33,144 nt of DNA, taken from the IMG/VR virus record IMGVR_UViG_3300032093_000500, positions 1 through 33,144 of that record; one strand, given 5' to 3'. Both the position numbers and the translations under genes were made by a program. Of the stretch, positions 5,057 to 31,414 are shown one piece after another. This DNA comes from a virus. Below the pieces are notes generated by a model. The model made no database searches, had not been told where the DNA came from, and saw only the letters and a list, made by a program, of their open reading frames with translations. Position 1 is the stretch's first letter; each line of letters begins with the position of its first letter.

Positions 5057-5857
5057 ATGAAAGAAAAGAACACAGGAGCACCTATTAATCAAGAAGAGAT
5101 ATCTCATTACTTGAAAGATATTAGAAGAATTAAAGTGATGACACCTGAAAGAGAGAAGGAGTTGTCAAAAATTATGATGTCTGAAAATTTGACAGAACGT
5201 CAAAGAAAGGAAGTTGAACATGAATTACTTATTGGTAATTTGAGATTCGTCATTACTGTGGCAAAACAATATCAAAATCAAGGTTTACCTCTACCTGATC
5301 TAATTAATGAAGGTAATTTTGGGTTGTTAAAGGCGATCAAAAATTTTGATTGGAGTAAAAATCTACGTCTTATTTCATATGCCGTTTGGTGGATTAAACA
5401 GTCAATCATTCAATCTCTTAATGATCATGCGAGAACTATACGACTACCGGTTAATGTGGTTCAAGAATTACAAAAATCTAAGAAGGAGATTGAAAACAAT
5501 GGAGGTAAATTATCCGATAAGTTTTCAACCTTACCTAGTACTATTGACTTGGATATGAATATCAATGAAGAGGGTGATACTTTGATTGATATGATTCCAA
5601 ATATGGATGCGGACGCTCCTGATTCCGCATTTAATACTAAAGATCTCCTAAAGGATAAATTGATGAAAACTTTGGATGTGTTAGATGAGAGAGAAAGAAT
5701 AATTGTTGAGGATTATTTTGGATTGACTGGTACACCAAGAACTTTAGAAGATATTGGTAGTGATTTTGGGCTTACAAAGGAAAGAGTTAGACAAATTAAG
5801 GAGAAAGCATTACGTAAATTAAGAAACGACTCTTCAGAATTATTTGAATATTTATAA
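5057..5857 (+). CDS. RpoD-like sigma factor (sigma-70 family), phage-encoded
   Basis: 266 residues with the layout of a group 1/2 sigma-70: region 1.2 (SHYLKDIRRIKVMTPERE, about 11-28), region 2.1-2.4 (NLRFVITVAKQYQNQG, about 57-72; DLINEGNFGLLKA; ISYAVWWIKQSI, about 102-113) and the region 4.2 helix-turn-helix (LEDIGSDFGLTKERVRQIKE from about 230). It is close to Bacteroidetes RpoD in regions 2 and 4, while region 3 is shortened and divergent. It should direct host RNA polymerase to a subset of promoters, plausibly late phage genes, as T4 gp55 does. It follows the 4505 gene by six bases and shares its host-type promoter. Confidence 0.93.
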   Translation: MKEKNTGAPINQEEISHYLKDIRRIKVMTPEREKELSKIMMSENLTERQRKEVEHELLIGNLRFVITVAKQYQNQGLPLPDLINEGNFGLLKAIKNFDWSKNLRLISYAVWWIKQSIIQSLNDHARTIRLPVNVVQELQKSKKEIENNGGKLSDKFSTLPSTIDLDMNINEEGDTLIDMIPNMDADAPDSAFNTKDLLKDKLMKTLDVLDERERIIVEDYFGLTGTPRTLEDIGSDFGLTKERVRQIKEKALRKLRNDSSELFEYL

Positions 5858-29723: not shown

Positions 29724-30200
29724 ATGAAAAGATTAATATTTAAAATTAAATTATTTTTTAAACGAGTAAAAACAAAAAACAAAATGATTGGAAAAAATGT
29801 AAAATTGGTTAAATGTACACCATCAGGAAAACCCTCATCGGGTAATCCTAACATTGGTAGTGATGGGTTATTTAGAATTAGTAGTAATTGGGTTACTGGT
29901 AACTGTTATAATGGATACGGTATTTGTAACTCTTTTGGTCACACGGCAGGATGGGTATACGAATATGAAATTGAAGGGGTACAAACAGTTCAAGACATCC
30001 AAAATGAGATCAAAGAAATGGAGGAAAAACTCTTTTGCCTTAAATCCAAAATAGAATGGATGAATGAGGTGGGTGCCACCGAATACGATGAGGATGAATT
30101 TAAGGTGTATGAAACCCTAAAGACTCTTCAGAATGACGGTTTGTCGATTAAAGATAAAACAAAATTAATTGCTTCTCTCATTAAAGGTAACAATTGTTAA
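29724..30200 (+). CDS. Unknown phage protein with Gly/Asn-rich start
   Basis: 158 residues from ATG 29724; an in-frame ATG at 29784 would remove a basic, possibly spurious 20-residue start and give 138. The rest has a Gly/Ser/Asn-rich beta-like domain (KLVKCTPSGKPSSGNPNIGS, then NWVTGNCYNGYGICNSFGHT and GWVYEYEIEG) with three Cys, then a helical, coiled-coil-like C-terminus. No family recognised. It has a promoter box upstream and a terminator downstream, so it is a one-gene unit. Confidence 0.6.
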   Translation: MKRLIFKIKLFFKRVKTKNKMIGKNVKLVKCTPSGKPSSGNPNIGSDGLFRISSNWVTGNCYNGYGICNSFGHTAGWVYEYEIEGVQTVQDIQNEIKEMEEKLFCLKSKIEWMNEVGATEYDEDEFKVYETLKTLQNDGLSIKDKTKLIASLIKGNNC

Positions 30201-30207
30201 AATATGA

Positions 30208-30234
30208 AACCCACCAATTAAAGGTGGGTTTTTT
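30208..30234 (+). terminator. Intrinsic terminator
   Basis: AACCCACC (30208-30215) pairs perfectly with GGTGGGTT (30223-30230) across a 7-base loop, followed by TTTTTT. Confidence 0.85.
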
Positions 30235-30258
30235 ATTTACATAAAATAAAACAATAAT

Positions 30259-30266
30259 ATATTTAT
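30259..30266 (+). promoter_or_regulatory. ATATTTAT box before the structured leader
   Basis: ATATATTTATTCC lies between the terminator of the previous gene and the structured leader that begins at about 30270, a sensible promoter position. Confidence 0.4.
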
Positions 30267-30269
30267 TCC

Positions 30270-30342
30270 TGAAACCTTGTTACTGGGTTCCGAGTGTCCT
30301 TGAGGCATTTGAGTTGGAGAGAGACCAACGATTCGGAGTTCA
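30270..30342 (+). ncRNA. Candidate structured leader RNA of the zinc-ribbon gene
   Basis: The 140 bases between a terminator and ATG 30372 contain a GC-richer island. I can nest these helices: 30270-30273 with 30339-30342; 30274-30277 with 30285-30288; 30289-30294 with 30332-30337 (TCCGA/TCGGA core); inside it CC/GG 30298-30299 with 30304-30305 extended by 30295-30296 with 30306-30307; and GTTGG 30313-30317 with CCAAC 30325-30329. This gives a compact, branched fold of 73 bases, with neither tRNA nor known riboswitch signatures. It would be at the 5' end of the transcript for the 30372 gene. The fold was drawn by eye. Confidence 0.45.
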
Positions 30343-30371
30343 ATAAACATAAAAAATAAAAATAAGGAAAA

Positions 30372-31358
30372 ATGTATTACAATCAAATCAGTGATAAGCC
30401 ATGTGCTTATATCACAAAAGGAAAACAAAGAATTAAACAATTCGGTCAGAATGTTTATCTAAAAGACGGATCAGAGTTTGAAATAGAACTTTACAACCCA
30501 TCAAGAAAAACCGTCCTATCAAAAATAAAAATCAATGGAGAGTTCATTACAGGTGGTGGTATTGTACTACGTCCAGGTGAGAGAGTATTTCTTGAGAGGT
30601 ACATTGATGTCCCCCACAAATTCAAGTATGAAACTTATACCGTAGAGACCACAAATGAAACCATGAATGCGATTGCAAATAATGGTGACGTTGAGATTCT
30701 ATTTTATGAGGAAGAGGACATTATTGATGTTAGAATAAATACCTTATCTTGGAATCCTACTTATACGACAAATAATTATAATGATATTATTGGCACATAT
30801 TTTAATACAAGTATAAATTACGATTCAAAATCCAATGTAGATGTAAATTTAACCAGTTTTAATGACACATTAGGTTTTAGTAACAATCCACGATCAAATA
30901 AATTTGAACAAAAACCAAGAAGTAGAGGTTTATTTAAAAAAACTAAATCGGTTGAAACAGGTAGAGTTGAAAAGGGATCATCAAGTGATCAAACATTCAA
31001 GACCGTAAATAAAAATTTTAACTCTTGGACTATATCAACATCAGTATGGAAGATATTACCGGAATCTCAAAAACCTGTTGAAAAAAAGGATTTAATTGAA
31101 AGATGCCCAAAGTGTTTAACAAAGATAAAAAAGTCATCTTGGAAATTTTGTCCTGAGTGTGGGAATGAATTGGTGAGGACAAAAACTGAAATTAACTACA
31201 TTGATTCAATTTATGTTGACCATAACGGTAAACGATATATGATGCAAGATTATAGAATGGAATTGGATAAATTCTTTGAATTACATAAAAATAAATTAAT
31301 TTATCTTAAAACCAGCTCAATCGGAAGAGACACGATCCGAGCGGTAGTAATTGACTAA
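30372..31358 (+). CDS. Phage protein with C-terminal zinc ribbon
   Basis: 328 residues. A beta-rich N-terminal part (about 1-115; KDGSEFEIELYNPSRKTVLS, then GGGIVLRPGERVFLERYIDV) looks like a small jelly-roll or structural domain. A Ser/Asn-rich linker follows, then a zinc ribbon with CPKC and CPEC (about 245-263), and a helical C-terminus that ends in SSIGRDTIRAVVID. It has an AAGGA sequence eight bases before ATG 30372, one of the few Shine-Dalgarno-like sites in the window, and a structured leader. Virion protein is plausible from the N-terminal domain, but not shown. Ends at a bidirectional terminator. Confidence 0.65.
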   Translation: MYYNQISDKPCAYITKGKQRIKQFGQNVYLKDGSEFEIELYNPSRKTVLSKIKINGEFITGGGIVLRPGERVFLERYIDVPHKFKYETYTVETTNETMNAIANNGDVEILFYEEEDIIDVRINTLSWNPTYTTNNYNDIIGTYFNTSINYDSKSNVDVNLTSFNDTLGFSNNPRSNKFEQKPRSRGLFKKTKSVETGRVEKGSSSDQTFKTVNKNFNSWTISTSVWKILPESQKPVEKKDLIERCPKCLTKIKKSSWKFCPECGNELVRTKTEINYIDSIYVDHNGKRYMMQDYRMELDKFFELHKNKLIYLKTSSIGRDTIRAVVID

Positions 31359-31387: not shown

Positions 31388-31414
31388 AAACCCACTTTTT
31401 GAGTGGGTTTTTTT
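31388..31414. terminator. Bidirectional intrinsic terminator
   Basis: AAACCCACT (31388-31396) pairs perfectly with AGTGGGTTT (31402-31410), 5-base loop, with a T run after it on + and A-rich sequence before it; it lies between convergent genes. Confidence 0.8.

Follow-up and report, generated by a model that had tools for sequence, protein, structure and literature searches.

The gene at 30372–31358 of a 33,144-base virus record (IMG/VR record IMGVR_UViG_3300032093_000500, analyzed at its full length and called the window here) is preceded by an RNA leader built around a three-way junction. Computation supports the helices of this leader, its conserved junction, its association with one gene family and, across divergent leader groups, the complementarity of an outer helix, P0, that extends almost to the start codon. 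With moderate confidence, we interpret the leader as a cis-acting element that controls translation of a single viral gene by hiding the initiation region through P0. The leader family can be recognized by its architecture and about seven junction bases despite nearly complete drift of the sequence. It can serve to mark an uncharacterized viral gene family and to manipulate its regulation, and it opens a route to translational control in presumed hosts whose translation starts are mostly not led by Shine-Dalgarno sequences.

A one-gene unit with a three-armed leader

The gene and its leader form a one-gene unit bounded by two terminators (Table 1); terminator-like sites in the window numbered 4, compared to 0.7 expected. 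The promoter scan as a whole was not above chance (11 sites found versus 7.6 ± 2.4 expected); in relatives, TTTACA (TTCACA in L012) is visible by eye. The ATATTTAT box sits within TATATTTAT (30258–30266), and a TATANTTAT box is located upstream of 56 of the 114 anchored leaders, a count made without a control. Judging from the best promoter site and from relatives, the RNA would start at about G30271. Since the phage encodes a sigma factor–like protein (5057–5857; PHROG 351, E 1.5e-49), the promoter may be of a non-host type. Genes upstream of the leader often differ among relatives. No tRNA or tmRNA was found in the window.

Positions 30270–30346 (77 bases) constitute a three-way-junction RNA with helices P1, P2, and P3, and the leader element as a whole spans from the predicted RNA start, at about 30271, to 30367. 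P0 and P1 share two bases in the window, the outermost two of P1. A first-pass annotation of 30259–30371, made from the sequence alone, had described a terminator, the ATATTTAT box, and a GC-richer segment of 73 bases with TCCGA/TCGGA and GTTGG/CCAAC helices. The terminator, the box, and both helices were confirmed, and the 77-base core has a G+C content of 45% compared to 29.5% in the whole window. The two helices correspond to the inner half of P1 and to P3, respectively; the 73-base extent was too small, and P0 had been missed.

Table 1. Features of the leader and its transcription unit (positions in the window).
Feature	Position	Strand	Basis or remark
Intrinsic terminator of the upstream gene	30206..30232	+	Terminator scan; separates the upstream gene from the one-gene unit
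Promoter-like TTTACA-N16-TATATT	30236..30263	+	10/12 matches
P0 5′ strand, CCUUGUU	30275..30281	+	Close to the RNA 5′ end
P1 5′ strand, UUACUGGGUUCCGA	30280..30293	+	Covariation; C.A mismatch at the fourth base
P2 hairpin, GUGUC-CUUGA-GGCAU	30294..30308	+	Covariation; zero bases separate P1 from P2
J23, UUGA	30309..30312	+	Junction bases kept across divergent phages
P3 hairpin, GUUGG-AGAGAGA-CCAAC	30313..30329	+	Covariation
J31, GAU	30330..30332	+	Junction bases of the type RA[AU]
P1 3′ strand, UCGGAGUUCAAUAA	30333..30346	+	Covariation
P0 3′ strand, AAUAAGG	30361..30367	+	Ends 4 nt before the ATG; doubles as Shine-Dalgarno-like bases
Downstream gene, 328 amino acids	30372..31358	+	Predicted beta-rich N-terminal part and C-terminal zinc ribbon
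Terminator 3′ of the gene	31388..31410	+	Terminator scan; closes the one-gene unit

Sequence comparison, not folding energy, supports the structure

The first-pass annotation had proposed comparing the folding energy with that of shuffled sequence. No signal was obtained in any of the four segments assessed, with z-scores of −0.41 for 30259–30371, +0.13 for the 77-nt core, −1.06 for 30271–30374, and −0.85 for 30271–30377. The minimum-energy fold of the window sequence itself shows the inner arms differently.

It had also proposed a search for covariation and conservation in relatives, and here the outcome was positive. A protein search yielded 16 viral loci, 15 of which include the gene start, and the leader was present in all 15. 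In a ten-sequence seed alignment, 95.7% of pair cells were paired, and 4 pairs had two-sided changes. In 37 distinct rows (41 matches from 42 sources), 94.1% of pair cells were paired, with two-sided changes in 15 of the 23 pairs. The number of cells with two-sided changes was 122, compared to 37.1 ± 5.6 when the 3′ letters were shuffled and at most 29 when they were slid; these controls act as a counterweight to the bias of an alignment that was fitted to the structure. Judged by comparison and not by energy, the leader structure is more than chance.

The junction is kept across divergent phages

To describe the leader independently of its sequence, we used a strict descriptor consisting of P1 (at least 5 pairs), P2 (at least 4), U[UA]GA, P3 (at least 4), RA[AU], and the returning strand of P1. 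A scan for the gene family gave at least 583 relatives among the 597 stretches listed, of which 80 were kept, and loci were added from two more scans led by divergent family members and from five metagenome-assembled genome (MAG) contigs. Of the resulting 244 loci, 241 had at least 110 nt upstream of the gene, and these reduced to 144 leaders distinct over their last 100 nt, a set in which contigs recur between scans and some start codons are probably misassigned. The strict descriptor matched 83 of the 144 leaders (82 distinct cores): 42 of 51, 15 of 46, and 26 of 47 in the three scans. Only 1 of 2,880 dinucleotide-shuffled leaders matched. Upstream regions of other open reading frames gave 5 matches in 775, and all five proved to be real leaders left unmasked. 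Random 130-mers gave 2 matches in 2,927 (scores 28 and 42), after 73 of the 3,000 drawn had been removed for leader-typical letters. By eye, many of the 61 leaders without a strict match also follow this plan, but P2 contains a mismatch or P1 an internal loop.

When only the junction lengths were specified, 100 of the 144 leaders formed the junction, compared to 68 of 720 shuffled sequences. Among these junction formers, J23 was UUGA or UAGA in 85 of the 100 leaders versus 2 of the 68 shuffles; no letters had been demanded, and the junction letters thus emerge from the data. Across groups, only the junction bases are conserved, while the P2 and P3 loops differ in both sequence and length.

Nine named phage records were also assessed. 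Four of them match the strict descriptor: the Lak phages L257, L258, and L259 (Prevotella) and the 735-kb phage L506. In three more (L253, L254, and L255), a three-way junction forms with junction segments of other lengths; the descriptor did not match L256 and L260, where P1, P2, and P3 are seen by eye only. The structure in the L253–L260 records was first noticed by eye and tested afterward, and the seed model R1 gave no match in these eight records. Within the Lak phages, P1 is UCUAUUAGACU/AGUUUAAUAGA in A2 and C1 and UCUAUUAGACA/UGUUUAAUAGA in B5, a two-sided change.

Several variants of the plan were seen. An internal loop in P1 combined with an AU-rich P0 characterizes L309, L324, L326, L328, and L334, which the strict descriptor misses. 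By eye, the 5′ end of the leader forms an additional short hairpin in L312, L329, and their groups (AGAGCCUCGCUCU and CUAGAGGUUUCUAG). Some candidates were discarded. Two loose DNA patterns run over viral contigs returned at least 120 stretches each, most of which are chance occurrences according to the model searches. Weak R1 matches in L135, L215, and L248 (16 to 22 bits) were set aside, L135 and L215 being judged chance on inspection. Fourteen further weak R1 matches (11 to 18 bits) were likewise judged to be chance; several map to the opposite strand at the 3′ end of the gene.

An outer helix can cover the start region

RNAalifold, applied to twelve leaders, pairs CCUUGUU with AAUAAGG, i.e., the two strands of P0. 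In other groups, the same two places hold different complementary sequences, such as GUUAACU/AGUUAAU, UGCCUUU/AAAGGUA, and GGUGCC/GGUAUC, and further group-specific pairs are CUCGU/ACGAG, GCUGUUC/GAAUAGU, and AGCAUU/AAUGCU. The L309 group has GAUUUUA/UAAAAUU by eye. Within the window's own group, P0 is nearly invariant, and one relative (L276, on a contig shared with L106) loses a single pair (AAUAAUG).

To evaluate this complementarity, P0 scores of native leaders were compared with those obtained after permuting the strands between groups. The mean native score over 39 leader groups, several of which share CCUUGU/AUAAGG and are hence not independent, was 11.49 versus 6.16 ± 0.75 for permuted pairs, and none of 10,000 permutations reached it; 30 of the 144 leaders could not be anchored for this test. 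The result was 0 of 10,000 for all three choices of segments. A score of at least 13 was observed in 26 of the 39 groups and in 12.6% of swapped pairs; five groups scored zero. In an earlier version of the test, in which the 5′ segment ran into the promoter, 17 of 2,000 permutations reached the native value, and the narrower segments were picked after that result. In the scoring groups, the 3′ strand of P0 ends 0 to 11 nt before the AUG. By this test, a helix that covers the initiation region has been kept by compensatory change across the 39 groups.

Bacteroidota start translation mostly without Shine-Dalgarno pairing, and, judging from relatives and from general knowledge of such phages, Bacteroidota are the presumed hosts. 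A Shine-Dalgarno-like motif was seen in 3 of 40 genes picked by hand from the window, the gene at 30372–31358 included. The motifs of the other two fall inside the preceding gene, and that of the gene at 30372 is the only one at an intergenic start.

The leader is found once per searched record, upstream of one gene family

With model R1, a single strong match was obtained in 15 of 16 records; the remaining record contains only the end of the gene. Model R2 gave exactly one match per record in a set of 18 that comprised one MAG and 17 virus contigs (up to 318 kb); in 8 of these 18 records, scoring covered up to 150 candidates. In the records searched with R1 and R2, the leader was found directly upstream of one gene family only. 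R2 had no match in 395 genomes from the phylum to which the L340 MAG belongs, a set without a positive control, and among 286 genomes of the phylum of L341, only L341’s own MAG matched.

The comparison with Rfam suggested in the first-pass annotation returned no match over the leader. Release 15 had no match in the window; within 30180–30420, searched down to E 10, the best score was an E of 0.055, over the terminator and below the gathering threshold; and the three matches in 12 loci of other groups all lay outside the leader. Searches of open-access papers found no description of this RNA. The leader is apparently an uncatalogued RNA family of very large phages: Structured leaders controlling one gene are a known kind, and the family of this one appears to be new.

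Other RNAs were encountered among the loci. On the phage contig L305, a GOLLD RNA (545–945; 311.7 bits, E 2.4e-88) is located upstream of a member of the gene family. L342 carries a tmRNA and a tRNA (1070–1399 and 1764–1834, respectively); this contig is filed as a Firmicutes MAG and is also present in IMG/VR as a 410-kb virus.

The predicted fold of the downstream protein resembles proteins of large DNA viruses

The 328–amino acid product contains a zinc ribbon at residues 240 to 275 (Pfam NOB1-type, 25.4 bits against a cutoff of 24.9). Its predicted fold (mean pLDDT 74.7) had no match in the PDB at E ≤ 0.001 and 20 matches in BFVD at the same threshold, with modest TM-scores (0.26 to 0.51 by query). 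The first-listed match is a marine phage protein with a SHOCT domain. Further matches come from giant viruses, iridoviruses, nudiviruses, and nimaviruses and are nearly all uncharacterized proteins; they include the iridovirus immediate early protein ICP-18 and nimavirus Wsv390. An RNA-binding fold was not established in the predicted structure of the product.

The C-terminal module varies among members: zinc ribbon, SHOCT, or RING by name. Two phage relatives of the product end in a tail without a zinc ribbon. Since the L256 and L260 proteins lack the ribbon yet keep a leader of this kind (by eye), feedback based on the zinc ribbon would not be general.

A model for translational control by the leader

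The first-pass annotation had left the role of the segment open between a cis-regulatory RNA, a processing signal, and a separate RNA. Covariation, occurrence with one gene family, the single copy per record, and P0 all argue for the first, while nothing found supports a processing signal. In the model that we favor, transcription would begin near 30271, and the first ~75 nt would fold into the three-way junction. Its long closing helix, P1, would place the RNA's 5′ end next to the start region. There, CCUUGUU would pair with AAUAAGG, covering the bases just 5′ of the AUG and hindering loading of the 30S subunit. The junction would serve as the control site, with a bound factor stabilizing or opening P1 and P0. 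That P0 lowers translation, that the leader switches, and that a factor binds it is what we infer.

Because no gene family other than that of the encoded protein was found to carry the RNA, we tentatively put this protein first among possible factors; it would then regulate its own synthesis by feedback. The variability of the P2 and P3 loops likewise favors a protein reader over a small ligand. More speculatively still, the leader may be an ancient k-junction of megaphages that responds to the amount of a phage protein with structural relatives in giant and other large eukaryotic DNA viruses; feedback on translation of this protein would come from opening or closing a helix joining the 5′ end to the start site. 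If this is true, an RNA family has been kept from freshwater Bacteroidota-type phages to the Prevotella Lak phages and the 735-kb phage, the leader being retained while almost all of its sequence changed.

A riboswitch for a metabolite or ion, in which the k-junction aligns two arms to create a pocket for the ligand, would use the same kind of junction as the TPP riboswitch, and the helix over the ribosome binding site could serve as its expression platform. We consider it unlikely: There is no long conserved unpaired run outside the junction, the P2 and P3 loops vary, and the leader was found on a single viral gene family, once per record, with R2 blank in the control-free set of 395 genomes mentioned above. 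It is also rather improbable that P0 and P1 simply close the 5′ end and shield an abundant message from 5′-end attack without any switching. If the promoter call is correct, the RNA does begin at P0 or within a few bases upstream of it, as such a stabilizer would have it, but stabilization needs no specific pairing next to the AUG, where the 3′ strand of P0 is found in the scoring groups.

A Shine-Dalgarno-like motif is missing from 37 of the 40 genes checked but present here as AAUAAGG. This could mean that the fold presents the start region to ribosomes of hosts that in most cases do not use Shine-Dalgarno pairing, P0 being transient. We regard such an enhancer as quite improbable, since P0 covers AAUAAGG itself and its complementarity is kept in groups without Shine-Dalgarno-like letters, e.g., GUUAACU/AGUUAAU. 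Last, a separate trans-acting small RNA (regulator, decoy, or packaging RNA) sharing the promoter of the gene would account for strong structure at the start of the transcript, but it is very improbable, as the plus-strand scan found nothing resembling a terminator in the stretch from the RNA to the ATG and P0 links the RNA to the start codon.

Comparison with known systems

Translational control by the leader, as we propose it, has precedents in autogenous leaders, such as those of ribosomal protein genes and of T4 gene 32. Common to both are a structured 5′ leader, a single gene, one copy per record, and coverage of the initiation region; unlike in those systems, the product here is viral, and no cellular RNA target is known to be mimicked. 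Riboswitches and RNA thermometers that sequester the ribosome binding site are another known general kind. They share with the leader an initiation region placed inside a helix, but the leader comes without a ligand, evidence of a temperature response, or a known aptamer.

The junction itself can be compared with the k-junction. According to two papers (PMC4005666 and PMC10573300), its third helix lies on the nonbulged strand, A1n and A2b are near invariant among the tandem G.A/A.G positions, and A.A is tolerated at 2b-2n; in the TPP riboswitch, the k-junction has an architectural role and places two arms side by side. The NC and T helices of the leader are separated by three bases, compared to two in the k-junctions described there; from the TPP riboswitch, the leader differs in the first pair of P3, which is G-C in 68 of 83 leaders where TPP has C-G at 3b-3n. 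It also lacks the TPP pocket and an Rfam match. With the k-junction RNAs (the TPP riboswitch and the DUF-3268 RNA), it shares a third helix on the nonbulged strand and two abutting helices, P2 corresponding to the C helix, P3 to the NC helix, and P1 to the T helix. Also shared, at the level of letters rather than geometry, are the tandem G.A/A.G beside the third helix, with A.A allowed at 2b-2n. Among the 100 junction-forming leaders, G1b is present in 88, A2b in 95, and A1n in 92, compared to 7, 21, and 30, respectively, of the 68 junction-forming shuffles. The leader junction, U[UA]GA with RA[AU], probably folds as a k-junction and would be a further natural example with a candidate biological role.
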